NCBI GenBank assembly: GCA_026770025.1
Contig: JAMXDE010000016.1
Span: 620,001 to 684,000, forward strand
From: Craspedostauros australis
Taxonomy: Eukaryota > Bacillariophyta > Bacillariophyceae > Mastogloiales > Achnanthaceae
Direction of reading: 5' to 3'
DNA: 64,000 bases
This document shows, piece by piece, positions 3-55,048 of the stretch. The position numbers and the translations under genes are program-made. The notes under the pieces were generated by a model. It searched no databases, had not been told where the DNA came from, and saw nothing but the letters and a program-made list of their open reading frames with translations. Position 1 is the first letter of the stretch, and every line of letters begins with the position of its first letter.

Positions 3-312
3 ACCCCATTCCAAGGGGTGACACAAGGCCACGGGGCGGCGCCAGCATGCTGGGTAGTGGTGAGCACACCAATCATCGAAGTGATGCGCCGGCGAGGTCA
101 CGGATTCCAGCACAAAGGATGCATGACCGGGGAAGAGGTGGAGTTCGTGTGTTTCACCTTCGTGGACGACACGGATCTTATTCACACATTTCGCACTGCG
201 GACGAGCAACAGATGGTGGCAGAAGCTCAGGAGGTGGCCGAGACGTGGAACGGTCTGCTCAAAGCCACCGGCGGAGCCATTGAGCCAGCTAAAAGTCACT
301 GGTACCTCATAT
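3..312 (+). pseudogene. Reverse transcriptase, N-terminal part of a split ORF
   Basis: The frame opens at the left edge. It shows two reverse transcriptase signatures: GVTQGHGAAPA, corresponding to the QG-S-P motif, and FTFVDDTDLIH, the catalytic DD box in the palm domain. It ends with KSHWYLI, where the frame runs into the transposon end at 313. The natural continuation is SFVWKNDKWEY at 7083 onward, so the ORF was continuous before insertion. The rest of the reverse transcriptase lies outside the window. The gene is broken only by the insertion; I see no other stop or frameshift in this piece. Confidence 0.8.
309..312. repeat. Left copy of presumed 4-bp target site duplication (ATAT)
   Basis: ATAT directly precedes the left terminal inverted repeat and is matched at 7080-7083 after the right end. 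Keeping one copy rejoins the host codons as CTC ATA TCG TTC without frameshift. Because ATAT is palindromic, a 2-bp duplication with longer inverted repeats cannot be excluded. Confidence 0.7.
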
Positions 313-326
313 CCATAGTGATTTTT
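313..326 (+). repeat. Left terminal inverted repeat of the transposon
   Basis: CCATAGTGATTTTT, a perfect inverted match to 7066-7079. Identity extends to 18 bp if the flanking ATAT is counted. Confidence 0.9.
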
Positions 327-329
327 TTC

Positions 330-412
330 TGCGTCAGGACGCAAAACGATCCCTTTTTGCGTCCTGACGCAAGCTAAATACGTCGCACCGTTTGTGTTTG
401 CGTCAGGACGCA
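330..412. repeat. Three subterminal palindromes TGCGTC-AG-GACGCA (left end)
   Basis: The 14-mer TGCGTCAGGACGCA occurs at 330-343, in inverse orientation at 358-371, and again at 399-412. Each copy is itself a 6-bp-arm palindrome with a 2-nt centre. A fourth full copy lies at the right end (7030-7043) and partial copies lie inside the longer inverted repeats at 5682 and 6977. Repeated subterminal sites next to terminal repeats are typical transposase-binding sites; that role is inference. Confidence 0.8.
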
Positions 413-675
413 TTCAAGAATTACTGTGGCAATTTAACACGAAGAGCAATCGTGATAGACTCGCTCGATTCCTTCGAATTTGTTTCTCCTCCTTCGAAAT
501 TGCATTGCAACGGACAATCGCCTGCTTTCTTCTCTGTGTCGCTGTTGTGTTTGCGCCCATCACCATCCATGTCGACCTTGCTCCAGCAACGTCGTTCGTC
601 TTCACCTGCTCCACACCTCATTGCAGCAGCATCAACGTCTCTCTCGCCTTCCGCACTTCCCACTTTCACATCACC
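413..675 (+). promoter_or_regulatory. Leader/promoter region of the transposase gene
   Basis: This stretch lies between the last left palindrome and the first ATG of the transposase frame at 676 (context TCACCATGAG). The frame is open upstream to about 394 but has no earlier ATG, so this part is probably 5' UTR and promoter. It is C/T-rich near the start. I see no clear TATA box. Confidence 0.4.
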
Positions 676-3600
676 ATGAGCATCCGTCTCCCTCAATCTT
701 CCTCCAGTGCTGACAAAGATGCAACACCACCAGAAACAGGTTTCCATCCTCTCCGCCATCCCATGCCCCCACATGTATCTGCCATGGTTCCACCTGCAAC
801 TGCTCCGTCACCTCACTCTCCTCGCAACCCCAACTGCAGCCATGCTTCTGTGGCTGCTCACAGTCATGGCTTGGATGTTGCAAGCGCAGATGATGATGAT
901 GTCAGCCATCGCAGTGACAGTGATCATGCCAACAAAGGGTCCATTCTTGTTGAAGACTCTTTGCAGTTTGGGGTGCTCCCTTCGAACAAGGCTGCTCATA
1001 GTCATCGAGTAGTCATCCCACCTTCAGAGAACTCTTCCCGGGGTATTCTTGAGTGGAGTGTGCTCAGCCCCAACCTTCACAGGACACGCATGACCTGCAG
1101 TGAGGCACATGACTTCAGTCTCCTCAATGCACGGTCTGAGGTGCAGTGCACCCGCAGCAACGTCCTCCAACTATTGCACCATCGTCCTCCATCCGTGCCA
1201 ACCATGAACGATTTGGTTCAACACCTCTTGGGCCCCTCCTCAGTTGTCTTTCTCACTGCGATGGGGCCAGAGGCATTTGGGCTGACCTACACTGAGTATC
1301 TTGAACTCCTCTATGGATTCTGTGAGCAGATGCTTCTGAGTTCAACAGTGAAGGGAATGTACGAGTCGCCTGAAACACGGATGCTGCCAAATTTCCCATC
1401 GCGAGATTCCTACATGGCAATTTGGAGTCGCATTGAACAGAACGGCGCACCAGACAACTACACTGGCCATCAATTCCTTTGGGTGGACCTAGAGAATGCG
1501 GTGAATACTACGTTGAAAACTATCTGCCTTGCACGTGGAAAGTTCCATCGTATGGTCACCTTGGACGACGACAAAGTACATTGTCAGACTCGGGGTGAAA
1601 AGAGCTGCCTCTTGGGTCAGCGACATGTGCAATGTAATCGCGACGGGTAAGTTGCCGCTGCCAATTTGTGATGACTACTGACCGTTGCAATACGATCGTG
1701 TTACTAACATTCTCTTCTCTGCATCTATTGCTCCTTCTTCCGTTTGCAGATTTACTTTGAATACATTGGTGCATACAGCGTCGGGATTGGTGGTTGGAGT
1801 CGCTGCCTCCCGTGATGGAGTTGTCAATGATAGTACTAACATACTAGGACAACTAGCCCAAGCAGATGGTCGTCTCCGCAATGTCACCATATTGTGTGAC
1901 CGAGGCTACAATTCTGAAGAGCTGGCTACAGACCTGATGAGCAAACATGCCGACATCGAAGGGACGCAGAAGCGCAGCCCACACATCCCATTCACATACA
2001 ATCCCAACACCAGGAATCGCGCCCTCCAAATGGATGTGGGCCGCCCAGGCCCGCCAATGCTGTCTGTGGCAACCACAAACAGCATATCGGGCCGCACGAT
2101 GTGGTGCTATGCTTATCGCCAAGGACAGAATACTGTACTTGCGACGTCCTCCAAGCCCGGTGGATTCGACTGGGATATCAACTTTCGTCATCAACGAGAC
2201 CAAAGGATGTATCACGACATGGTAGTACAGAAGGATGGTCCGAATCCGCAGTCAGAGTCGTACCCTCAATTCTTCCATGAATGCCTCTCTGATTTCCAGC
2301 GTTCGTCTGTGTATACTGCAGCGAAGGCAGTGACTACAACTGGCGTTGGCGCTCAAACCTACGGCCCCCTAACAGAGGCACAAACGGAAGCCGTCGCTGC
2401 AATCTCACCAAACGCAGCAAACACCGCCAACCTTGTCGCAGACGCCGAGCACGCAGTCCGAATGAGATGGAAGAAGAAGATCTGGGAGCTGCAAGTGGAC
2501 GGTCTTACCTGCACACAAGGCGATCACATCTGGTTCCTCCAAAGGCGATTTTCCTTCACCAGCACATCTGTTTTTCGCATGATCGAAGCTGTACTCAACA
2601 GTGGCGAGTGGATCAACAGCGACAACGCCACCATCTTCAATCAAGTTGCTTGGGAGGAAGTCGGTCGCTATTATGGTTTCAATGTGGAGGGAAAGACGAC
2701 CTCCTATGGCGCAGCAGTGGTGGAAGAAAGGGTGAGGGTGAAATGTCTGAGGCTGCACAGAGCACTGACCGACCCTGACACCAACACATGTTCGTTGGAG
2801 CAACAACTTGGGGCCATGGTGCGTGAACTCAACAGTCCAATGGCATTTCTGACCGACACCGAACTTTCCTCTCTCATGGGGATGTTCTACATGAACAGAG
2901 CCAAACGGGCGAGATCCACGAAGCTGAAATCGATGCAGATCATCCTTGCAGAGACGGATAAACTCCGGAGACGATTCATTTGCGTCAACGATCAAACGTT
3001 GAAGAAGCTGTTGCGAGAACGCATTCCGAATAAGAAACAGATCACCGAATCCAGAGTACAGATCATCAATCGGCTCATTGCCTTCGCGGTGAACGATGAA
3101 AGCACTCGCGACGAGGAAGACAACGAAGGAGCAGACGACGACGAGGAAACACCGTGGATGATATCGTTGAAGCGTGATCTCACCACACTGATGCTTCAAG
3201 CCTGGTTCATGAAACGGCTCCGTGGCCAATCTTCGAAGGACGCGAAGATGGGCCACGACAACGAGAAGCCAATGATGGAAAAGATGATGGAGACGACGGA
3301 CATCAACAACTCTGGTGCGTATGTGAAAGCTGCATTCCGGGCAGGGCTTGTGAAGAAGCGCGGCAGGAACTATGCTCGTGCATCAGTTGATTTTCTTGCC
3401 GTCGTGGGCGATCCAGCTGATGACACGAATGACGAGGTGTATGTTGTCGAGATGAAGACAAGAACTCGGCCTGGTACAGTCAACAATGAAAGACATCATC
3501 AACGGACCGCAGCCTTCAGGCATTCCATGGAGGACAATGGCCATGTGTATGTCAAGCAACAGAAGGAGAAGTGGCGAGGACTGTTCCAGCAAAAATCCGA

Positions 3601-5730
3601 AATGGTGCAGCTCCTCCACCATGCGTTCGTGTTTGGAGTGAAAGGAGCTGTGATTGCCATAGGTAAGTCCACCACACACATTCAGCATGCTGCAATCCTG
3701 ATGTGCGATGAAATTCCAGTCTGCACATATCCTCACACATGCGTCCAACCCAATCCACACCGCCCTTTGTGTCACGCGCCTCACCATTGTTGATGGCAGG
3801 TGACGAATTGGGCAACATCATTAGGTCAATGGCAACACACTTTGAACCTTCCCTCATGAAGTCCTACGGCATAGTCTTGCATGACCTTTTCTCCTTAATG
3901 TTGGATTTCGCATACACCGAACGCAGCCACCTCCCAACGACAACCCTGTCAGGGAGGAGGTTACAGAAATACCTTCGCTCGAAGCGTAGCCCACAGAAGC
4001 GAGGATCCGGCGGCCACCACATTGCCTCACTCACAACCGAGGATGTGTTTCATCAACTGATGATATGGAAGGCCTGCCAAGACCTTCCCTCCCCCATCCC
4101 ACGGGTTCACACCTTGGTACCTTCCATCATCTCGCGATGGAATGCTCTAAAAGGTGGTTCCGATGTTGTCTCGCGAATGATCCGTCAGCACCAAGCACGG
4201 CTGCCATCCTCAAATTTCCAATGCTACGCTGTGGCACGGTTGCTGGAGGTGTACATGCTGTTCCTCCACAAATTGCATCAGTACTGCTGTACACCGGATG
4301 TGTTTGACAACAAAGATCTGGAGAGAACGCCAACCATCCGGCACTACAGGATGATGCTCAATGGAAGACTGTCTGTCTCGGATTCGATCAAAGAAACAAG
4401 AGACACCCTTGCGCACATGCTGAGACAGATGAAGGAATCACGAAGGAATCACAACAGATGTATGGCGGAACAGAGAGCTGTGAAGATCAGCACTTCAAGT
4501 TCAGATGACAAGAAGCCTCGCGTGCTTGATGGGAGGCCAACATGGGAGCACGAACCAATGGACAACTTGGCAGTCCGAGCTCTTTTGTCAAGCACTTCGA
4601 CATCAATTTCCTCCGCCGAGGTGGCTCTCAACAAGCGCCTGCGCGAAGGAAATCATATGCCAATGCACTGCATCAAAACAAGACAACCATGTATTGTCTG
4701 TGGGGTCGCAACGCAATGGCTGTGCATGGAATGTCACCTGTTTGCGTGTGTTCCCCCCACTGCCAATCACAGAAAATGGGCGACACACTGTGGCATGGCA
4801 AATGAAGTCACGATGTGCAACATCATAATCAACAAGGAACCAGTGGATGCTAGCAACACCTGCTTTCGAATGCTACATGGAGACGACCGAGCATGGGCGC
4901 ACCAAACAACAACTAGCTACGTGGAATGGAACAAAACAAACTCACCAAGGAAACAGAAAGGAAACAATGCAGGCAACAGCAAACTGGAAACAGAACGCCG
5001 CGCTACAACCAGGAAAGCAGAGGAAAGGAATGGAGCAACAATAGTTGAAGCGATGCAACGGAAAGCTGGGCCCACTAGAAGGCAACATGCAAGTACGGTA
5101 GCAACAACGAAGCCGGCGATGAGAACCAGAGCGGCGTCGGCGACCGCAGCGAGGACGCCCAAAGCGATGGAGGCGTCAGCAACAATGGCACGAAGTACCG
5201 CAAACACAAAGACCAGAGTAAGCGAAATCGCCGTCCATGGGCAGAGAAGGGGGAAAAGAAAGGAAGAAGGCAATGCAGTGCACACACAACCAGTACCAAA
5301 GCGAAGATGGACTCGATCTCAAACCGTGCAATCCGGCGATGTTGCAACACGAACTCGTTCCAAAGGACTTGCTGGCATAACCATGGCGACAACGCAAGAC
5401 CTTGAAAAGAAGCAATGCCCAGGGGATGGCCCACGATGCCAACTGTAAGTTAGATTTGTGTAGAAGTGTAGATGAAAAGCATATCCTTACTTACAATGCC
5501 ATGATGGTATGCGGTTGATGTCGTTCTGCAACACAAGCAGAGATGGAAAGCGCGAGAAAATAACAAGGGAACAAGCACGACAGAAAGATCGATGCCGAAA
5601 TTGTGGGGGGCAAAAATCGCTTTTAATCCAACGAATCAATCACGAATCGACGTCGCGACAAATCGTCGCGGTATTTTTCATTTGCGTCAGGGACACCCGG
5701 CAAAAAGCAACGGAAACAAAAATCGACTAG
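676..5730 (+). CDS. PiggyBac-like D-D-D transposase with inserted PD-(D/E)XK nuclease domain
   Basis: Inferred exons are 676-1646, 1750-3662, 3800-5444 and 5541-5730 (1572 aa). If the last intron is not used, exon 3 stops at 5448 (1510 aa). Every join keeps frame and all three donors are GTAAGT. Candidate catalytic residues are D297-D299 in TLDDDKVH, D374 in LCDRGYNS and D1083 in KGGSDVVSR, resembling the piggyBac D-D-D triad. A C-terminal CIVCG...CMECH...CFRMLHG region resembles the piggyBac Cys-rich DNA-binding domain, followed by a basic tail. D2 and D3 are about 700 residues apart instead of about 100. The insertion has a DHIWFLQRRFSFTST stretch, then SVDFLAVV (D871) and VVEMKTR (E891, K893), the D-(x)n-E-x-K pattern of lambda-exonuclease/YqaJ-like nucleases. 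Optional exon 4 adds a CRNCGG knuckle. The role is cut-and-paste transposition; what the nuclease does is unknown. Assignment rests on motifs only. Confidence 0.7.
5682..5705 (+). repeat. Long internal inverted repeat, left copy
   Basis: TTGCGTCAGGGACACC followed by CGGCAAAA pairs with 6977-7001 in inverse orientation with only a small difference near the centre. The outer end resembles half of the subterminal palindrome (TTGCGTCAGG). The pair encloses both 20-bp arrays, so this 1.3-kb block may be a regulatory cassette or a nested nonautonomous element; no target duplication is evident. Confidence 0.7.
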
Positions 5731-5950
5731 TACGACTAAATCGACACCCAAGAACGATTTTGTCACCCAGACACGAGAAAGCCGAATGCGACGTTTTGAC
5801 ATCGATGAAGAACAAGTCTTCCTTGGAAGAACTTATGTAGACATCCTGTTGGTCCTACTTCGGATAAATACAGCGAGGCATCGATGCAGCTCGCCGGCTT
5901 GATCGAGTCCCGTCAGTAAAGAAACCATACAGTTCGACATTCTAAATAAT

Positions 5951-6112
5951 TCGAATGACGGCTATTTAAATCTAATGACGGCTATTTGAATCGAGTCGCG
6001 GCTATTTGAATCGAGTGACGGCTATTTAAATCTAATGACGGCTATTTAAGTCGAGTCGCGGCTATTTGAATCGAGTGACGGCTATTTGAATCGAATGGCG
6101 GCTATTTAATTC
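5951..6112 (+). repeat. 20-bp tandem array A, eight units
   Basis: Units of the form TCGARTGACGGCTATTTRAA repeat with an exact 20-bp period eight times. The core GACGGCTATTT is nearly invariant (CGCGGCTATTT in two units, GGCGGCTATTT in one). Flanking trinucleotides alternate between TCTAAT and TCGAGT types. Lies in transposon noncoding DNA downstream of the transposase. Confidence 0.9.
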
Positions 6113-6165
6113 GCAGTGTTTTATACTCGTGATCCAAGTTGACAAGTTGGGAAATTGATAAAACC

Positions 6166-6417
6166 ATGGAAGTGCGCCTGGTCTCCCAACGAAACCACAA
6201 ATTGATGGCTCTTCGCTGCTTTGCCCTGCTCTCAAAGAATCACAACAGAGACGGGTGTGCGTTTGGAGTGTTGTCGTCACCGTTCAAATTTCATTGCTAT
6301 CGTATAAATGTGAAGCCTTGCCTAGTCGAAAAATTGACTGTTAGGGAAGCCAATGCAAGATGGACGAGACACCTTCATCGCAGCGTTGAACTTCGCATGA
6401 GTGTTGATGAGCGTTGA
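6166..6417 (+). CDS. Possible small ORF between the two repeat arrays (83 aa)
   Basis: An ATG in good context (AAACCATGG) opens an 83-codon frame (MEVRLVSQRNHK...) ending at 6417, between arrays A and B. I recognise no domain; two Arg-rich stretches are the only feature. A second short frame (65 aa) starts at 6737 at the edge of array B. Either could be chance. The position inside the repeat-flanked cassette is the only reason to list it. Confidence 0.2.
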   Translation: MEVRLVSQRNHKLMALRCFALLSKNHNRDGCAFGVLSSPFKFHCYRINVKPCLVEKLTVREANARWTRHLHRSVELRMSVDER

Positions 6418-6580
6418 CCGATTGCCAAGGTTGAGCTTCCTGTGTTGCTTGGTGTGGGTGAGCGGTGGTTGATGGCCGGCTGTTGGGTTTTGTGGGGTGT
6501 GAGGGAGTGAGCCAATTACCATAATAATTGTGGAGACGTGTCCTGTGAAGGCAACAGATGCGTAACTAAATAAGTCGAAT

Positions 6581-6737
6581 GACGGCTATTTAAATCTAAT
6601 GACGGCTATTTGAGTCGAATGACGGCTATTTGAATCTAATGACGGCTATTTGAGTCGAATGACGGCTATTTGAGTCGAGTGACGGCTATTTAAATCTAAT
6701 GACGGCTATTTGAGTCGAATGACGGCTATTTAAATCA
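6581..6737 (+). repeat. 20-bp tandem array B, eight units
   Basis: The same GACGGCTATTT core with 20-bp period and direct orientation relative to array A, again eight units (starts at 6581, 6601, 6621 and so on to 6721). The last unit runs directly into an ATG at 6737. Arrays A and B are separated by about 470 bp of non-repetitive sequence. Confidence 0.9.
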
Positions 6738-6976
6738 TGGGTTTGGTTGTTGCACAACTTCTCGGGATTAAATCACGAGGCTTTGCATCAGGGTCATTTT
6801 CGGAGTTTCTCCATGATTCTCCCAGCAGTGAAACTCGAAGCTATGACCCACGAAGAGTTCCTGAGAACGAAAATTTGAGTCGAGAGCATTCTTTTCGCAG
6901 GAACAATTGTCATCGCCATAACAACAAGTTTTAATTGGCTGGACCAGTCATCTCCAGGATCGACTAATTCGACCCA

Positions 6977-7001
6977 TTTTGCCGGGTGTCCCAGGACGCA
7001 A
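6977..7001 (-). repeat. Long internal inverted repeat, right copy
   Basis: TTTTGCCGGGTGTCCC followed by AGGACGCAA is the reverse complement of 5682-5705 with a one- to two-base difference. It lies 29 bp left of the right-end palindrome. Confidence 0.7.
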
Positions 7002-7029
7002 CAGTTCACGCACACCGCTAGTAAACATC

Positions 7030-7043
7030 TGCGTCCTGACGCA
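7030..7043. repeat. Subterminal palindrome, right end
   Basis: TGCGTCCTGACGCA, the complement of the left-end 14-mers, 36 bp from the right terminus versus 17 bp for the first left copy. Likely part of the same transposase recognition system. Confidence 0.8.
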
Positions 7044-7065
7044 AGGGGGGTCCTCTGTCGTGGGG

Positions 7066-7079
7066 AAAAATCACTATGG
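7066..7079 (-). repeat. Right terminal inverted repeat of the transposon
   Basis: AAAAATCACTATGG, the reverse complement of 313-326. Between it and the nearest palindrome at 7030-7043 is a GGGGGGTCCTCTGTCGTGGGG stretch with no counterpart at the left end, so the ends are not symmetric beyond the 14 bp. Confidence 0.9.
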
Positions 7080-7083
7080 ATAT
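7080..7083. repeat. Right copy of presumed 4-bp target site duplication (ATAT)
   Basis: Partner of 309-312. The following sequence, CGTTCGTGTGGAAG, resumes the host reverse transcriptase frame. Confidence 0.7.
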
Positions 7084-9893
7084 CGTTCGTGTGGAAGAAT
7101 GACAAATGGGAGTATCGGGCGAGCGAGGACGTCCCAGGCAGCATAAGGATCACGAAGCCTGACAGCCATGAACGTACGGACATCGAGCGACTGGAGGTCA
7201 CCGAGGCGCGGCGAACGCTGGGAATTGTGGCCAGCCCCGATGGAGATCAACGCCACGCAGTCGAGGACATGTGCCAGAAAGCAAAGGAATGGGCGAGCAA
7301 AGTGCGCGCGGGCAGACTCAGCCGAAGAGAAGTGTGGAGGGCTTTAAGGCACACCATCTGGAAAACGCTGGAGTATCCGCTACCGGCGACTACCCTGACC
7401 AAGAGCCAGTGTGAGGAAGTGATGCGACCAGTGCTGCAAGTGGCTCTCCCAGCAGCAGGAGTCCAGCGCAACGTTGCCAGAAGCATTGTGTTCGGCCCAA
7501 CAGAAATGTTGGGGCTGGGCATCAAGCATCTGTACTGGCAACAGCTGACGCAACACGTCTCCACCATTTTCAGGCATTGGCAGGCGTCAACGCTCACTGG
7601 GAAAATGCTGAGGGTCTCGTATGAGGCGGCAGCGGCAAGCGCAGGGACCATCAATCTGTTCCAGACAACTGGGAGCAAGTGGTCCAAGATAGTCCCACAA
7701 TCGTGGTGGGCAAGCGTAGCAGAAGAAGCGGCGTCGGCGAACCTCGAGGTACGGATGGGGAATTCGATCTCCAGCCCCAGACGGCAAGGAGATCGGCCAA
7801 TCATGGACGTCCTCGCAGCGATATGCGACCCGGAGGAAATGAGGCAAGCAAATCTGTGCAGACGGTCGCTACAAGTCTTCTGGATGTCCGAGATTGTATC
7901 GGCAGACGGACGAAGTGTGCGGCAGGCCGCAATTGACGGAGACAGCACACAGATCAGACGGAGCACGATGCAAATTCCAAGAGTCGGGCGGATCAAGGCG
8001 GCCTACTGGACAACCTGGGGAGCCAAACTGAAGTCTCTGACGACGAGAGATGGAGTGCTCCACGATCAGTACAAGCTTGGAGGATGGCGTAAAGACGAGA
8101 CAACAACGCCGATGCGGTGGTGCGAAGCCACAGGAAGGTTGCAAGTCAAAGAGGCGCAGTGGACTGTGTGGCAGGAAGTGCCCATGAGATCACACCGACG
8201 GATGTTCCGACGCATTCCCAACGCCGTGGGGGACGGATCCGGTGTACCAGCTGACGGGTATCTCCAGGGCGATGGTCTGCGCATGATGACCACAGGAGAG
8301 TGGGAGGACGAAAGGCCCACCCTCAGCACCTCGGCCATGCCAGACGCGTGGCGAAGCCTCGATGAGGACGAAGCCTGGGCCATCCAACACGTGCGCAGCG
8401 AGACAGACTGGCAAGACATGTCGAGGAGTATTCAGGACGGGACAGCGGTTGGAGGCAGCGATGGATCGGCGAAGGGAGGTAAGGGATCGGCAGCGTGGGT
8501 GATGGCGACAGATGCCACGCTCGAATCGATCGCCTTCGGAACGCTTGAGGCACCGAGACGGGAAGGACCCACGTCGTCGCAGCGAGCAGAACTCGCAGGC
8601 ATATTCAGTGCACTCCTAACGATCAGGGAAATGGAGAAAAGATATGAGATGGAAGGGGGGGGGGGAATGCGATGGAGCTGCGACAACATGCAGGCGCTCA
8701 AGTCGCTGGAGTGGGACGACGATCCAGATCCCTCAAGCCCCGACTACGATATGATGGTGGCCACCATACGCGCGCGGAGACAACTGCGGACGAAGGTCAG
8801 CGGTCAACATGTGCGAGGCCATCAAGACGGCCGCAAGCAGCTGCATGAGCTGGATGCATGGGAACGCATGAACGTGATCACAGACAGACTGGCGGCGCAA
8901 CGCTGGGAGCTGCTAGAGAGCACTGACAGCTGGAGCTACCATCAACACACGGGGAAGGCAGCATGGAGTGTGTGGAAGGGCGGCGTCAAGCGATCGAGAA
9001 TCACCTATGACAGTATAGCTGGCGCCAACATCAGCGAAGCGATGACCAGAGTGCGGCGGGAACGGGGCATCGACACAGGCAATGAAGGCGAAGCGGACGA
9101 GGGCGCCATGCGGCGGGCGGCGACGAGTCTGTCTGAAACGCAGAGAGTGCTGACGATGAAGCTTATGTTGAAGGAGGCAGCAGTGGGAACCAGAATGGTG
9201 CAGTGGAAGGCGCGAGTGACGGATGTGTGCCCCCGGTGCGGCGAGACTGAGACGCACGAGCATCTTTGGGTGTGCCAATCTGACGAATCCCTTGCGTTGT
9301 GGAGAACGCAGCGACACCGGTTACGGAAGACATTGCGGAAGGCGGCGACCCACCCAGGTCTTGCCAAAGTGATGGTACGAAATGTGAAGCAAACGTCCCG
9401 AAGGCTCGGCCCGGTGGGACGCATACGGGCGAATCAAGTAGAGGCCAAGCTGATGGACGATCAAAGCGCGATCGGGTGGAGCAGGTTCCTGAAGGGGGTG
9501 ATGGCCGCGTCATGGTCCACCCTGCAGGCGGAGTACTACGTGCGCATAGGTAGCAAGCGATCGGCGGAGAAATGGGCAGCGCAGGTGGTGCGGAAGGTGT
9601 GGAGAATTGCGTGGGAGCACTGGTACCAAAGGAACCAAGCCATGCACCACAGTGATCAAGGGCCCGAGGCTGAGCTGCGGCAGATGGTGAGAGACTACGC
9701 GACGCAGTTACAGGAGGAGGGCCAGGAGCAGAGCTGCCAGGACGCGGAATGGGCGCAGCTGACTCTAGATGGCCGCGGAGCGACCGATATCGCTACAGTG
9801 GCCGTGTGGATCGGGCAAGTGCAGCGCGTGCGTGGACTGCCAGCAGATCATGCTCCAGCAGAGGTACGCAACTGGCTGCGACGCCGCAAATGA
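7080..9893 (+). pseudogene. Retroelement polyprotein, C-terminal part: RT thumb, RNase H, zinc knuckle
   Basis: This is the downstream half of the ORF split by the transposon. The frame enters at ATA TCG TTC GTG (7080-7091) and stays open for over 930 codons. Counting from codon 7089 as residue 1, an RNase H domain spans roughly residues 450-610. Its four acidic residues are visible: D458 in GGSDGSA, E501 in QRAELAGI, D532 in SCDNMQAL and D599 in VITDRLA. A CPRCGETETHEH...C knuckle follows near residue 715, as in zf-RVT domains. A run of G inside the RNase H region keeps frame. Lacking its own start and reverse transcriptase core, this half should not be functional, but the intact reading frame suggests the element was young when hit. 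Confidence 0.85.
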
Positions 9894-22631: not shown

Positions 22632-25199
22632 ATGCCTCCGCAACAGCAAGCCAACGCGAACGACGGTGGTCGCAATGGAAACACCATGCACCGCGTGGGA
22701 TCGGAATCCGACATGAGCGAGGCCGGAGACAGCAGCTCGCGTGGGTACAGAGTGCGCAAGTCCAGTCTCATTGGGTAAGCTATCATCATGCTGCTCGTGC
22801 CAGTATCCATTGCTCTATTTCTTCTACTTCCTCTTGATGGTAATCTCATCCCACCACATGGCACCAAAAGCCACGCACATGTCTCCTGGGATCCAAGCAA
22901 GTCCGGAAAGGCCATGTTCAGATTCTGCTCTCCACAATGCGATCCAATTCTCACCATCTGATTCTCTTTCCCATCATCACTCCTCTCGACACGCTGCATC
23001 TGCATGCCATCTTTGCATGGCATGGTGTATTGATGATGTTGATACTACACCATTGCTGCACTTCAAATGCGCGCCATCATTTGTTGCACCACATCATGAA
23101 TCATGACACGTGATACATGACATCCACGAACTTGGAAAAAATCATGCGTTTGCAAATCAAAACGTCAACTTGGACATCATCGCCATCATCACTCTATTGT
23201 CGCCGACGTCACCGATCCCAACTTGGCAAACACAAAACAAACAAACAAACAAACAAACCACAATGCAATGGGGATACAACGTGATGTATGATGTGATACG
23301 ATCGCTCTGGATCACCACTCCAACATCGTTTTCAATAAAATCTACTCATTCGTTTCTCACATCACAATGAATAAACGAATGAATCTACTGATGAATGATT
23401 GAATGCGCCAACGATGATGACAACAACAACAACGACAATGGCACAAATGATGCTGCACATAAAACCAAAACCAAAACAGGATGATCAACTGGTCGCACGT
23501 GCTGCTCACGCACGCGCCGCAGATTCTGGCGCTCGGTCTTGTCGTCCTCTTCGGACAGATCGTGCACCAGGTGGTCAAGGATCTGTTCGGGGATAGCGAG
23601 GTCCGTTGGTATTCGTGGGAGACCATCTCTGTCATCTTCACGGCCATCAGCGATCTCTTCTTCCGTCTCTACCTCAGCATCGTCGAAAGCCACGGTTTCT
23701 CCCTCTTCTCCACCGAAGTGAAGATCACCGCCCTCGTTCTCGTCATCGGCATCTGGTTCGTGCGTCGCGACAATCCAATCTACCTCCTCTCCTTCGCCAC
23801 CTTCAAGGCGCCGGAGGAATGGAAACGATCGCACGATGAGATCGTCGAGATGATGAAACGTCAGAAATGCTTCACCGATGACAGCCTCAACTTCATGCGC
23901 CGCATCCTCGAGAGATCTGGAACCGGACAGGCCACCGCGTGGCCACCGGGCATCATCAAGTCCCTCGAACCAGGCGCCCCCAAGGCCGACCGATCCGTCT
24001 CGGCCAGCAGAAAGGAGGCCGAGGCCGTCATCTTCGATGTCGTCGAGAACGCCCTCAAGAAGGCCAACGTTCACCCGCGTGAAATCGACGTCCTCGTCAT
24101 CAACTGCTCCCTCTTCTCCCCCACCCCATCCCTCTGCGCCATGGTCACGTCGCACTTCGGCATGCGTCAGGACGTCGCCACCTTCAACCTCGCCGGCATG
24201 GGATGCAGCGCCTCCCTCATCAGCATCGACCTCGCCAAGCGTCTTCTCGGAAAGGGTCATAGAAAGGCCCTCGTCGTCTCGACCGAGATCATCACTCCCA
24301 ACCTCTATCACGGCAACAGCCGAGGCTTCCTCATCCAGAACACCCTCTTCCGTTGCGGTGGCGCCGCCATCGTCCTCTCCAACAACTGGCTCGACGGAAG
24401 CCGCGCATGGTACAAGCTCCTCCACACCGTCCGCGTGCAGGGAACCGACGACGTCGCATACGAATGCGTCTACGAAGCTGAAGATGAATCCGGCGAGCGC
24501 GGCGTGCGTCTCTCCAAGGACATCGTCAAGGTCGCCGGCAAGACCATGGAAAAGAATTTCACGACGCTGGGACCGCAGGTTCTGCCCTTCACCGAGCAGG
24601 CCAAGGTCGTCTGGAGCGTCATCCTGCGTCTCATCCTCAAGCAGCTCGGTCTCGCCCTCAAATCCAACGGTGCCGAAGGCATGGCCACCAAGCTTCCCAA
24701 GGTCAAGCCATACGTCCCGGATTTCAAGCGTTGCATCGACCATTTCTGCATTCATGCGGGCGGACGCGCCGTCATCGATGGTACGTCGTCTTTTGCGCGT
24801 TCCATTGTGTTGTCTTCGCTGCGCTCCCTTTGTTGTCTGTGCTCGCATTGCGCGATGAAGGCAGTCCGTGCCAATGTCTCGATCGTGGTGCTTGCATCTC
24901 ACACAACATTCACTTTATCACATTCTTCTTTTCTCGCCGACTCCTCAACAATGACAATAACAACGACGACAACAACAACAGGTATTGAGAAGAACATGCA
25001 ACTGGAAGCATTCCACACCGAACCATCCCGAATGACCCTCCTCAACTTTGGAAACACCAGCTCTTCATCGATCTGGTACGAGCTGGAGTACATCCACTAC
25101 CAGCAGAAATCCAACCCGCTGAAAAAGGGCGACCGAATCATGCAGGTCGCCTTCGGTTCTGGATTCAAGTGCACGTCCGGAGTCTGGTTGAAGGTGTAG
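22632..25199 (+). CDS. 3-ketoacyl-CoA synthase (FAE1-type very-long-chain elongase)
   Basis: Three exons: 22632-22774, 23480-24780 and 24982-25199, joined in frame as SSLIG-MINWSH and VIDG-IEKNM (553 aa). The enzyme condenses malonyl-CoA with acyl-CoA in the first step of very-long-chain fatty acid elongation at the ER. The thiolase-fold triad is visible: Cys290 in NLAGMGCSAS, His473 in FCIHAGGRAV and Asn506 in LNFGNTSSSS. The His-Asn spacing of 33 equals that of plant FAE1. The N-terminal half has hydrophobic segments (HAPQILALGLVVLFGQIV; ITALVLVIGIWFV) that anchor the protein in the ER, as in plant KCS. Exon 1 encodes a polar 47-residue leader. The first intron is long (705 bp) and contains an AAAC tetramer run. 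Animal and fungal ELO-type condensing enzymes are unrelated. Confidence 0.9.
23236..23258. repeat. AAAC tetranucleotide run inside KCS intron 1
   Basis: Five to six AAAC units within the inferred 705-bp intron of the ketoacyl-CoA synthase gene. Confidence 0.75.
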
Positions 25200-25724: not shown

Positions 25725-28005
25725 TTACGAGACCATGGAGGACGACCAGTCTTCTCGCAAGACAGGCATGTAGAACGGTGGCCCATTGCACCATTCCAGG
25801 CTCTCCAATTCTTCCGTGACGGCCTTGACGCTGGCGAGTGGCACCTTCTCCGTGATGAGGACGAAGGCGGCGTCATCTCGGCTGGTGACGGGGTTTTGCA
25901 GGATGGAGTGGATGGAGACGCCGTACTTTTCGCACACCTCGCCACACTCGCGGGTGATTCCGAGCTTGTCGCTGTACTTCAGGCGGATGTAGAAGACCGA
26001 GTCGTAGTCGTCGACGAATTCCATATCTGGGTTGGGTGGGTTGAATGGGAGGGACGTACTGTCGCCCTTGGCGAGCGACACGATGTCATTGACGCAGCTG
26101 TTGGCGGTTGGGTATCGTCCTGCTCCCTGCCCGATGAAGGTGGAGGAGACGAGGTTGCTGGAGACGACTTCGACGGCGTTCGTGGCACCGTTGACCGATG
26201 AGAGGCCATCGTCGGCGGTGACGTAGCATGGGGAAACGAAGGCGGCGACCTTATTGTCGCCCACGGTCTTCGCGACGCCGATCAGTTTGATTGTTCCGCC
26301 CATCATCTTGGCGTAGCCAAAGTCCAGCTTGGTGAGATCGGTGATTCCCTTGCACGCGATGTTTTCCTCACCAACCTCAACTCCGAATGCCAGCCTCATG
26401 AGGATCTTGAGCTTGGATCTGGCATCGAAGCCGCCAACGTCCAGGGTTGGGTCGGCCTCGGCGTATCCGAGCTCGGCTGCCTCTGCCAGGGCTTCGTCGT
26501 AGGATTTGCCATCCCTGTCCATGGCGGTGAGCATGAAGTTGGTGCAGCCATTGATGATGCCGCTGAGCATGGTAATGTCATCTCCCACGAAGTCGCTCTG
26601 CATGGAACGGATGATGGGGATTCCACCGCAAACTGCCGCCTCATAACGGAACTCCACCGGTACCTCGCTGTCCTTGTTGACATCCGTCAGCAGCGCCTCG
26701 ATGTCTGGGAGGCAGGCCGCGATGAGGGCCTTGTTGGCAGTGACGACGTCCTTTCCCTTCTTGAGCGCGGTGTAAATGACGTCCTTGGCCTTGTCGGTGC
26801 CACCCATGACCTCCACGAGCATGTCGAGAGAGTCATCTTCCAAAAGGTCGTCGTAAGACGTGGTGAGGGAGCATCCCTCCGGGATTTCGAAATCTCGCTT
26901 CTTGTCGAGGTTGCTGACGCAAATCTTCTTGACCTCCAGCGACTTGCCTGTCATCTGCTCGAAGTACGCCTTCTTCTTGCCAAGGATCTCAACGATTCCG
27001 CCTCCGACTGTGCCGCCTCCGAACAGACCGATTTTGAGAGTTGATGGGGCCGCATCAGCGGCCATGCCGAGTGGCGCGACCGATGATGCCTGTATTGGTC
27101 AATTGGCGTGAAGTGCAGCATTGTAGCATTGCAGCAACGAACATGATGGCATGTAATGTCCCGTGTCAGAACGTGACGTAGCGTCCAGCGGATGATCACA
27201 GAGTCGAGCGCGATTGTGTTGGGCAGATTGTGGAATTTGATTGAAGAAATACCCGTCACATATATGATAAGTGTGAGATGTCCATTGAGGAATGTCCGAA
27301 TCCATTATCCCATTCGAATCGCAGCCACGACGCAGTTTATGTTTGCATTTGCGTGTTGAATTGGCAGTTGGATTTCGCGAGAGAGATGTATTGTAGTGTG
27401 TGTGGAAGCATTCCAACATTGGCATGGGCATTGGTATGGTTCGACATGATGGAGCATTCGGTCACAACCATTGCGTGTCGAGGAAATTGCAAAGGGAGAA
27501 CATACATGATGAGATGGAGAAGTTAAGCGGGCGGTTGTCATTGCGGAAAGAGGTCAGAAATTGATTTGATTTCACTTTGGAGTTCACTTGGAAGTTCACT
27601 TTGAATTGGACTTGGATTGATGGGTCGATGCCTCGTTTGGTTGATTGGCAAAACAATACGGCAACGCCAGTCGTCACACTGCGTTGCATTCCAGTCATTA
27701 GCTCACAGTGCTTTGGGATTTTTGCGACTTCCTCAGCACGTGAGCAAGAGGGATGTGATGATGGCAACAATGGTGATGCCACTGGTAATGTGTCTTGTCC
27801 AACCCATTCGACCATGGTGCCTTGCTCAGTCACATGCCGCCGATGCCTATTGAACCCCGAAGCTCGAATGCGTTCGTCCAGTGACTCCATTCGGTGCGTC
27901 CCATAGCATGATGCTGGTACGTACCCGTGAAAGATATCTTGGGGTGAATCCAAGAGCCGGGGTGACGGCCGAGAGGCAGAGAGGAAGTGTGAAGTGGAAT
28001 CTCAT
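25725..28005 (-). CDS. Homoserine dehydrogenase, plastid-targeted
   Basis: Main exon 27089-25725. A small first exon at 28005-27925 is inferred: it encodes MRFHFTLPLCLSAVTPALGF and TPRYLSR and ends at a GTACGT donor. The main exon follows an AATACAG acceptor in phase 0 (reading ASSVAPLGMAAD...), giving 481 aa with an 835-bp intron. The first exon supplies a signal peptide ending ALGF-TP, the plastid motif. The enzyme reduces aspartate semialdehyde to homoserine with NAD(P)H, feeding threonine, methionine and isoleucine synthesis. Features: IGLFGGGTVGGGI nucleotide site, catalytic-domain VTANKALI, GGIPII and GIINGCTNFML, and a C-terminal ACT-like domain (YIRLKYSDKLGITRECGE) suggesting amino-acid feedback. 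It is monofunctional, without fused aspartate kinase. Translation from the internal Met at 27065 would lose targeting. Confidence 0.88.
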
Positions 28006-52642: not shown

Positions 52643-54559
52643 TTATTCTACGTCCATGTCGTCGTCACCTTCGTTATCGCTGACGCCGAGCTTGAGCTGC
52701 AAGCCATCGCCTGTGCCGCTAGCGCACGCCAGGACCTGATCCCACATGTGACCGACGCCCTTGGCTTGCAAGATCTTGCGCGCCTGTTCTGACGTATCGC
52801 ACGATTGAAAGACGAATCCCTTGAAATGATGCCGCACCGCCAGACCCGTCCAAACGAGCTCGCATTTGTTGTCCTTGTTGAATTTGTGGCGCACGGGGGC
52901 GTCTGGATCCTGTGGCTGTGCTTCTTCGTCTTCTTCTTCTTCGTCGTCGTCGTCATCCGATTCATCCTCTTCCAAACCCAACCATTTCATGCGCACGGTC
53001 ATCAGACGACGGTACTTCTTGATGGATTTGGGACCACCTTCGCAAATGACGCACGCCATCTTGGGATTCTCGCATTCGAGGACGCCGCCGGAGATGTTGT
53101 ACTGCTGAGCGTTGAGCTCGACCTTGGCACGGTGGTAGGGATGCGACATGTCCTTGACGTAGAAGAGGGCGACGTGGACCTCGCCCTTGGTATCCTCGAG
53201 GAGCTTCTGCGCCCGCTTCTGCTTCCTCTGGTCCTTGGTGAGTTTGTTGGCGTCGTTGCGCTCGACGTGGGCGCGCTGTCGGGCCTCGATCTGCTCGCGC
53301 ACCTTCTGCTCCATCTGGCTGGGATCGAGGTAGGCCTGGTCGCCGAGGACCTTCATGAAGTTGCGCAGCGTGAGGCGCGGTTCGGGGGCCGGGATGAGAC
53401 CGGCCGCCTGCATGTCCTGCTGCTCGCGCTGCTTCTCCTCGCGTCGCATCTTGCGCTGCCTCTTGCGCTCCTTCTTGGTGAGGTAGAGCGTGGGCTGTGC
53501 CTCGGGTCCATCCTTGGCGTGAGGTGGCTTGATGGGGACGATGTGCTGGACGAGGCCGGCCGTCTTGCAGTGAGACAGGGCGGCCTCGGAGAAGCAGACG
53601 TCCTGCAGGTTTTTGGCCTCCTTATCCATGGCCTTGTCTTTGGATTCGTCCACGTCGTCGCCGAACTGGGTCATCTGCGACTGCGTCTGCTTGGACAGGG
53701 CCTTGCCCTCGAAGGCGGCGACCTTCTTCTTGAGCCTGGATGGCAGGAGCTCGACATCCCACCACTCCAGGATGCTCGGTATCGACGTCTTGTCGGACGA
53801 TTCCGGCGGTTCGGGCGCCACCGTGGCCTCCGCAACGTCTTTCCCGGCGGTGCCACCACCACCGCCGTAGATCTCCGCCATGGTGGCGGACGTGTAGTAC
53901 GTCCCCACCTTGCGACCGCTGGCGAATCCGGACTGGACGGCGTTGGCCGCCTTTTGACGTTTGCGTTCGGCGATCTCCACGAAAGTTCCCGGTTGCACGA
54001 ACGACAGCGCCTTGCCACGCTGCCGTTGCTTGCCGGATCGCACGAGACGATCATCGATGATGTCCGGATCCACGGCGGCGTCGCCATCTCCATCGGGCGC
54101 GGAGCCATCATTGGCAGCAGCAGCAGCAGCCTCATCCGCTTCGACGTGCGCAAGATACGGATTGACCTTCTTCTTCTTTGGTGGCGCAGACGCAGGTTTG
54201 TCCTCCTTCTCGTCCTTCTCGCCTGCCGTCTTGGTCATGCGCTCAAAGGTCGGCCCCGTGACGGACATGTCCAACTCAAAGACCCTGGCCTTCTTGGCCT
54301 TGGGTTGCGAGGCGGCATCGCTGCTGGCTCTCTTGTTGGCCGCAGCCGGTTGCTTGGATCCTTTCAGCGCTGCCAGCTTGGCCTTGATGGAATCCTGCAA
54401 GGCAAGTGCGCGGGCTCTGGCATCGGCAGCTGCATCCACTGCAGGCGCTGCCGCAGCTGCCTCTGGTGCGGCATCTCCCCATCTGCGCTTCTTCTTTCGT
54501 TTCTTCTTTTTCGACTTGTCGCTGCTCGGCGGATCCTTCATGGCTTTGTCGGATGGCAT
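52643..54559 (-). CDS. PRP3: U4/U6 small nuclear ribonucleoprotein PRP3
   Basis: A single-exon 638-aa protein, close to the usual 650-690 of PRP3. The N-terminus is a Lys/Arg-rich nuclear-type stretch (SKKKKRKKKRRWGD). The PRP3 domain starts near 258 (PSILEWWDVELLP) and includes VQHIVPIKPPHAKDGPEAQP, LYLTKKERKRQRKMRREEKQ and LRNFMKVLGDQAYLDPSQME, all characteristic. The C-terminal DUF1115 domain (~480-625; ALFYVKDMSHPYHRAKVELN, then YRRLMTVRMKWLG and NKCELVWTGLAVRHHFKGFV) binds U6 snRNA and is interrupted by an acidic Asp/Glu loop. PRP3 stabilises the U4/U6 duplex in the tri-snRNP before spliceosome activation. The antisense frame of 590 codons is a shadow. Confidence 0.93.
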   Translation of the reverse strand: MPSDKAMKDPPSSDKSKKKKRKKKRRWGDAAPEAAAAAPAVDAAADARARALALQDSIKAKLAALKGSKQPAAANKRASSDAASQPKAKKARVFELDMSVTGPTFERMTKTAGEKDEKEDKPASAPPKKKKVNPYLAHVEADEAAAAAANDGSAPDGDGDAAVDPDIIDDRLVRSGKQRQRGKALSFVQPGTFVEIAERKRQKAANAVQSGFASGRKVGTYYTSATMAEIYGGGGGTAGKDVAEATVAPEPPESSDKTSIPSILEWWDVELLPSRLKKKVAAFEGKALSKQTQSQMTQFGDDVDESKDKAMDKEAKNLQDVCFSEAALSHCKTAGLVQHIVPIKPPHAKDGPEAQPTLYLTKKERKRQRKMRREEKQREQQDMQAAGLIPAPEPRLTLRNFMKVLGDQAYLDPSQMEQKVREQIEARQRAHVERNDANKLTKDQRKQKRAQKLLEDTKGEVHVALFYVKDMSHPYHRAKVELNAQQYNISGGVLECENPKMACVICEGGPKSIKKYRRLMTVRMKWLGLEEDESDDDDDEEEEDEEAQPQDPDAPVRHKFNKDNKCELVWTGLAVRHHFKGFVFQSCDTSEQARKILQAKGVGHMWDQVLACASGTGDGLQLKLGVSDNEGDDDMDVE

Positions 54560-55048
54560 CGTGACTTGTTCAGCTGATCTATTCTATCACGTATTGTATG
54601 TTCTATTACAGTATTAGTATGGCGGTGCTACCAGTATTGATAGTGTCCTGAGTGTGGATGCATCTGCTGGATGGTGATCTTCTGTCGCGATGTTGTGTTG
54701 GTTGGTGGGAAATGATGAGTTCTTCTTGTGGCTCAGTTCAGTTCTGGTTTGGCTTGGTTTTGGTGGCAACAGAAACCTCTTCTTGATGGGGAATGGGAGC
54801 GACGGACAGACGTCCCGCCAAACAGAACCAACCAAAAAGTCGAGCCAACACCCATCAAAACACACACAAAGCTGTGCTCATCGATGCCCATGGCACATCA
54901 TCCCGTCGGGAGACAAGAGGAGTCCGGACAAGAAGAGGACAAGAGGCAGATGGAATTGATGGAATTGATGGAACCCTGATTATCGTCAACATCATCAACA
55001 TCATCAATACAGACGACAACGATACCATCAGCAACAACCACACCAACA
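54560..55048. other. Divergent intergenic region
   Basis: 490 bp between PRP3 and the RPA34-like gene start; probably a bidirectional promoter. Contains AACATCATCAACATCATC just before the second start. No gene supported. Confidence 0.5.

Follow-up and report, generated by a model that had tools for sequence, protein, structure and literature searches.

Results

We analysed a window of 64,000 nucleotides from the diatom Craspedostauros australis (assembly GCA_026770025.1, contig JAMXDE010000016.1, positions 620,001 to 684,000), in which a DNA transposon of 6.8 kb at 309–7083 encloses a predicted three-exon gene at 676–5448 (forward strand; 1510 codons, 1510 amino acids). The predicted product has three Asp motifs in the order of piggyBac transposases, with a putative nuclease of the lambda-exonuclease/YqaJ type placed between the second and the third catalytic Asp (D2 and D3). 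Exon 1 (676–1646) holds the D1 motif TLDDDKVH at 1558–1581. Exon 2 (1750–3662) holds the D2 part of the transposase, with the motif LCDRGYNS (D374) at 1892–1915, together with the inserted nuclease, and exon 3 (3800–5448), which ends at the stop codon, holds the D3 motif KGGSD (D1083) at 4150–4164 and a C-terminal Cys-rich domain of the pattern CxxC-x7-CxxC-x4-C at 4690–4794. Both predicted introns (1647–1749 and 3663–3799) have the form GTAAGT...GCAG, and their positions are unchanged in diverged copies of the gene. In the spliced frame, the motifs TLDDDKVH, LCDRGYNS, DHIWFLQRRF, SVDFLAVV, VVEMKTR and KGGSDVVSR start at residues 295, 372, 582, 869, 889 and 1079, respectively, and D2 and D3 lie 709 residues apart; in canonical piggyBac proteins, this distance has a median of 124 and a range of 109–130 (65 of 83 fetched proteins were measurable by pattern). 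A first-pass annotation of this DNA had reported the same motifs in the same order, with D871, E891 and K893 correctly numbered and a D2–D3 spacing of about 700 instead of about 100 residues, and all of these are found in the spliced frame. The gene end that it had placed at 5730 was abandoned, since the stop codon lies at 5448 and a last exon reaching 5730 would end inside a nested insertion (5692–6991) that the sister copy L009 lacks.

Exon 2 alone carries D2 and every nuclease motif, and therefore no splice lies between D2 and the nuclease. In an alignment of 14 copies from the same genome, D297–D299, D374, W585, R589, T594, S595, D871, E891, K893, Q944, D1083 and five Cys residues were kept in all 14, and E829 was kept in 13. 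When the broken copies L024 and L033 were dropped, every one of these residues, including E829, was present in 12 of 12 copies; another broken copy, L019, which lies outside the alignment, has Lys at position 829. Chance occurrence of the motifs was rejected on the basis of this conservation. The results support a putative nuclease of the lambda-exonuclease/YqaJ type that lies, within a single predicted protein, between D2 and D3 of the transposase.

The conserved set of lambda exonuclease consists of W24, R28, T33, S35, E85, D119, E129, K131 and Q157 (protein numbering of J02459). The order W..R....TxS, E, D, ExK, Q, which is shared by lambda exonuclease, YqaJ and viral alkaline exonuclease, is also that of the inserted segment. 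Its motif I (QGDHIWFLQRRFSFTST, 2516–2578, forward strand as are the following three) has W585, R589, T594 and S595 aligned with lambda W24, R28, T33 and S35; motif II, N828-E829 at 3260–3265, is aligned with E85; and motif III, YARASVDF...VVEMKTR at 3374–3466, has D871, E891 and K893 aligned with D119, E129 and K131. Motif IV, QLLHH at 3608–3622, lies outside the block aligned by hhalign, and its Q944 is matched to Q157 by motif order only. Unlike members of the lambda exonuclease/YqaJ family, the segment has motif I and motif II separated by about 150 additional residues and is lodged inside another protein. A profile of the nuclease was compared with 11 phage exonucleases using column-shuffled controls. 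The N-terminal half scored 25.8 and the C-terminal half 29.4, neither score was reached by any of 80 shuffles, and the catalytic residues were in register. Without the two broken copies, the halves scored 26.5 and 22.5 (0 of 40 shuffles each), the best shuffle for the C-terminal half being 21.0. The nuclease type proposed in the first-pass annotation is thus supported by the motif order and by the half-by-half profile comparison.

When 10 exon-2 proteins were scanned singly, the lambda-exonuclease family TIGR03033 matched inside the nuclease of L018 (E 0.02) and L023 (E 0.0044), and the RecE-like exonuclease phrog_434 matched inside the nuclease of the same copies (0.019 and 0.0058). Scans of alignments, which give no positions, matched TIGR03033 in 7 of 32 rows (13 of the rows being exon-1 pieces), phrog_434 in 4 of 12 and Viral_alk_exo in 3 of 31 (best 0.036), and unrelated families reached E-values comparable to those of the nuclease matches. 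Between L034 and L035, the ratio of nonsynonymous to synonymous substitution rates (dN/dS) was 0.14 and 0.13 in the two nuclease halves and 0.07 in the transposase part, with dS saturated. The genome also has a YqaJ match standing alone (PF09588, E 1.6e-17) at C25:34761–35165, which is possibly the source of the inserted nuclease or else an unrelated gene.

A profile built from 26 piggyBac sequences was compared with the transposase segments. The D3 block, aligned with MGGVD of piggyBac, and the Cys-rich domain, aligned with its piggyBac counterpart with CxxC/CxxC/C in register, each gave scores reached by 0 of 50 shuffles and, without the broken copies, by 0 of 40. The D1–D2 segment was also in register, with DDD over the first Asp, DRGY over DNYF and the next strand over VST. 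When the nuclease was cut out, the remaining transposase aligned with piggyBac in the order D1-D2-D3-tail with 84% probability. Near the ends of the window element, four sites of the form TGCGT-CAGG-ACGCA or TGCGT-CCTG-ACGCA were counted, against 0.08 expected from base shuffles. Such sites were also present in L009, L010, L015, L018, L020, L027, L030, L031, L032 and L034, and none was counted in the other family loci, of which L011 and L014 have different palindromes. According to PMC8086355, the Cys-rich domain of Trichoplusia ni piggyBac binds 5'-TGCGT-3' and has a Cys/His pattern that differs from the one found here.

The element is bounded by ATAT target-site copies at 309–312 and 7080–7083 and by terminal inverted repeats at 313–337 (CCATAGTGATTTTT..., forward strand) and 7055–7079 (reverse strand); its ends are alike in L009. 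Subterminal palindromes lie at 330–343 and 399–412 (TGCGTCAGGACGCA, which holds TGCGT/ACGCA), at 358–371 (TGCGTCCTGACGCA) and, at the right end, at 7030–7043. When the flanks were joined with a single ATAT, they matched an uninterrupted copy of the host repeat at C28:33262–33661 in 400 of 400 bases. Because an identical empty site exists elsewhere in the genome, the window insertion is real and recent. The host repeat broken by the transposon covers 1–308 and 7084–9893 of the window; a long open reading frame at 6879–9890 has no Pfam match and by eye resembles a retroelement RNase H region. The sister copy L009 is 99.8% identical to the window element (11 mismatches in 5383 bases and 0 in 92). 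The possibility that the element is a degenerate relic was rejected by the empty site, the sister copy and the intact frames, and the element is, judged from its sequence, an intact-looking DNA transposon that was recently mobile. The nested insertion at 5692–6991, 1.3 kb long with many short repeats GACGGCTATTTGAATC, has inverted ends of its own, GACACCCGG and CCGGGTGTC, is flanked on either side by CAGG and interrupts one subterminal palindrome of its host transposon.

With up to two mismatches allowed, the end sequence occurred 113 times in the genome and the reversed control pattern once. ATAT stands beside ends starting with CC in L009, L011, L012, L013, L016, L017, L020, L021, L022, L024 and L028. 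In L014, the best candidate is a TCGA pair (13 of 16 end bases matching) and an ATAT pair (12 of 16) comes second, and variant ends ATATCCACGGTGATTTTT at C24:510043 and 515270 flank the L034 gene. Convincing ends were not found for the remaining loci tried, several of which are short. The terminal bases across copies are CCAT, CCAC or CCGT. Because ATAT is its own complement, duplications of 0, 2 and 4 bases are formally indistinguishable, as for TTAA, and the piggyBac convention of 4 was adopted. Together, the results show one gene family that keeps its catalytic residues and inserts at ATAT.

A protein search of the 74.8-Mb assembly (90 contigs) gave at least 114 matches, with 69 of 138 candidates scored. 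Thirty loci, L009–L038, were chosen by their match to exon 2, that is to D2 and the nuclease, and the sample is therefore biased to copies having both. In 14 of the 30, D1, D2, the four nuclease motif regions, D3 and the Cys-rich domain are all in open frames. Copies in which the two parts are separate genes, a case raised in the first-pass annotation, were not encountered among the 16 loci, all fetched via exon 2, that cover both D2 and D3: the D...ExK region of the nuclease lies in between in every one. L010 matches through D2 only. In L012, L013, L016, L017, L021, L022 and L028, the match ends ahead of the D...ExK motif and D3; the end-to-end distance is 3.57 kb in six of these and 4.7 kb in L022. 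The seven shortened loci look like internally deleted, non-autonomous derivatives and are probably mobilised in trans. Both introns occur at the identical site in six copies of two other subfamilies (L015, L018, L020 and L027; L023 and L026), and the positions are shared with copies about 30% identical to the window protein. GT-AG junctions are also present in L011 and L014, and none was found for L024.

Outside this genome, no homolog was found among the 8000 candidates scored with the spliced protein or the 7999 scored with the exon-2 alignment, drawn from some 5.8 billion database proteins, a search in which candidates must share 5-residue words and distant relatives may be missed; the same database returned 83 relatives of one canonical piggyBac of this genome. 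Pattern scans confirmed no homolog in viral contigs (0 matches in one scan, 29 in another) or in prokaryote genomes (46 matches), and a search of solved structures by sequence gave a single match with E = 3. Canonical piggyBac is also present in the genome of C. australis: one copy, at C4:1826500–1827849, lies next to the L009 copy, and the named database relatives of the canonical copy used as query include the diatoms Cylindrotheca, Amphora and Nitzschia. Farther along the window lie a FAE1/type III polyketide synthase-like gene (23463–25196), a homoserine dehydrogenase gene (25728–27098) and a PRP3 splicing factor gene (52646–54583).

Discussion

Taking the architecture and both assignments together, we consider it likely that the gene encodes a piggyBac-like DDD transposase with a lambda-exonuclease/YqaJ-type nuclease between D2 and D3. 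The family is like piggyBac in the order of the three Asp residues, in the D3 block (WN..KGGSD here, YN..MGGVD in piggyBac), in the C-terminal Cys-rich domain, in a 4-nucleotide palindromic AT-rich target, in its CC ends and, in several copies, in TGCGT/ACGCA near the ends. It is unlike piggyBac in the ATAT target, found in place of TTAA in the window copy and the other copies with ends found, in a D2–D3 interval lengthened by the inserted nuclease, in the missing match to DDE_Tnp_1_7 and in terminal bases that share CC but not the full motif CC[C/T]T (PMC2872659). The contrast in target is less sharp in light of a piggyBac-like element of a moth, for which 2 of 21 insertion sites are reported to be ATAT (PMC4273485). 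Because target, DDE_Tnp_1_7 match, terminal motif and D2–D3 spacing all fail, we do not file the family as piggyBac; the transposase is probably piggyBac-like and a sister of piggyBac. Of the piggyBac assignment of the first-pass annotation, a piggyBac-like D3 block and Cys-rich tail are supported; membership in piggyBac itself is put in doubt by the missing DDE_Tnp_1_7 match and the ATAT target.

A number of results weigh against these assignments. On the transposase side, the Pfam match of the window protein is to DDE_Tnp_1 (3.3e-5; 24.2 bits, just passing the cut-off of 23), a family that matched one of three proteins when the nuclease was cut out. DDE_Tnp_1_7 (PF13843) was never listed in scans of the family proteins; it has 160 matches elsewhere in the same genome, with none on the window gene among the matches listed. 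The D1–D2 segment is not significant alone, its score being reached by 5 of 50 and 8 of 50 shuffles, and the comparison of the cut-out transposase gave 4% probability when trimmed alignments were used, in a run that scored 31.1 against 25.1 for the best of 60 shuffles. On the nuclease side, alignment in one piece failed to exceed its shuffled controls (25.6 versus 26.6; 26.2 versus 28.1), probably because motifs I and II are separated by about 150 residues that vary. The TIGR03033 scores, 15 and 17 bits, are far under the cut-off of 68.05, the library matches, weak throughout, are confined to two subfamilies, and 8 of the 10 singly scanned proteins, window exon 2 included, match neither TIGR03033 nor phrog_434. 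Pfam YqaJ was never listed in profile scans of the family proteins, and close pairs within a subfamily differ by few changes, with dN/dS values that scatter, up to 1.51 in the N-terminal half (5 nonsynonymous, 1 synonymous). The YqaJ and DDE_Tnp_1_7 profile searches that had been proposed in the first-pass annotation listed neither family; the nuclease halves and the D3 block and Cys-rich tail beat their shuffles.

The DDE_Tnp_1 match, together with a weak match of L030 to the IS1182 model (0.0025), would fit a transposase of another DDE group, IS4/IS1182-like DDE_Tnp_1 or Kolobok/KolobokE, in which the third catalytic residue would be another one and the nuclease would have been gained as in KolobokE. 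A nuclease resembling lambda exonuclease is carried by the DDE transposon KolobokE, and a diatom is among the known hosts of Kolobok (PMC9587614). However, both the D3 block and the Cys-rich tail could be aligned with piggyBac, the nuclease of KolobokE is described as lying downstream of the transposase domain rather than inside it, and Kolobok elements have the target TTAA and ends of the form 5'-RR...YY-3' (PMC9587614) in place of ATAT and CC...GG, and we regard this reading as unlikely. Two separate genes, or a chance join that leaves the nuclease and D3 in different proteins, have very little probability: the D3 exon is connected solely via predicted intron 2, but the order is the same in all loci covering D2 and D3, the GT-AG sites are conserved and D2 shares an exon with the nuclease. 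Another known carrier is ISL2EU of the PHIS superfamily, which has a YqaJ nuclease on a DDE transposon and a short palindromic AT-rich target; unlike the present family, it has a THAP transposase and an AT target in A|AT|T, and its YqaJ is mostly a separate reading frame (PMC4482050), the second of the element (PMC4482050, PMC9179366), not part of the exon of D2. The functions of the extra PHIS reading frames, ISL2EU YqaJ included, are stated as unknown in PMC4482050. The first-pass annotation knew of no described family with this layout; none with exactly the order D2-nuclease-D3 was found in searches of open-licence papers. A nuclease of this type on a DDE transposon is, however, already known from KolobokE and ISL2EU; what is new here, as far as these searches reach, is the insertion between D2 and D3 and the fixed ATAT target.

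With regard to function, the conserved residues suggest that the inserted nuclease is very likely catalytically active. Insertion domains interrupt the catalytic core between D2 and D3, and within the nuclease the residues that separate motif I from motif II vary most, both of which would suit a catalytically idle segment serving as a large insertion domain with a structural or DNA-binding role; the retention of D871, E891, K893 and Q944 in all aligned copies and of E829 in all but one, down to about 30% identity, makes this improbable. The first-pass annotation had proposed that the element carries its own end-processing nuclease, built into the transposase fold; such a nuclease might, for example, open hairpins or trim flanks inside the transposase complex. 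The placement between D2 and D3 is consistent with this idea, as an insertion domain interrupts the catalytic domain of piggyBac and other DDE transposases (PMC9499001) and residues of the Hermes insertion domain aid hairpin formation (PMC6900584). Canonical piggyBac, however, manages without a separate nuclease, and we find end processing somewhat unlikely.

A role in resection of the donor ends is a tentative possibility that we place above end processing. In piggyBac chemistry, transposon hairpins form and open, and complementary 4-nucleotide donor ends can close without a trace. The transposase would recognise the short inverted ends and the subterminal palindromes, cut, and join the element at ATAT, and chemistry of the piggyBac type would leave self-complementary 4-nucleotide ends at the donor site. 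In the most speculative steps, the 5' strands at the donor break would be degraded ahead of sealing by the nuclease, acting as a 5'-3' exonuclease of the lambda type attached to the excision complex, and the break would be pushed to homologous repair from the sister copy, which would restore the element and raise its copy number. ISL2EU (AT within AATT) and Kolobok lineages E, D and P (superfamily target TTAA) are nuclease carriers that also have short palindromic AT-rich targets; canonical piggyBac, which has no nuclease, is the counter-example. The family may represent a new eukaryotic superfamily, sister to piggyBac, with a fixed ATAT target and a 5'-3' exonuclease as insertion domain, in which donor resection leads to sister-chromatid repair and net copying, a combined proposal that we hold to be rather doubtful as a whole.

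In this family, the transposase itself is predicted to contain the nuclease; since the family is young, has many copies and offers an empty site for comparison, the role of the nuclease in excision, donor repair or copy gain can be tested by point mutations. The architecture would show that the D2–D3 interval of a piggyBac-like core is able to hold a whole enzyme. If the resection proposal is true, precise cut-and-paste transposition would have been turned into net copying by resection of an otherwise seamless donor break.

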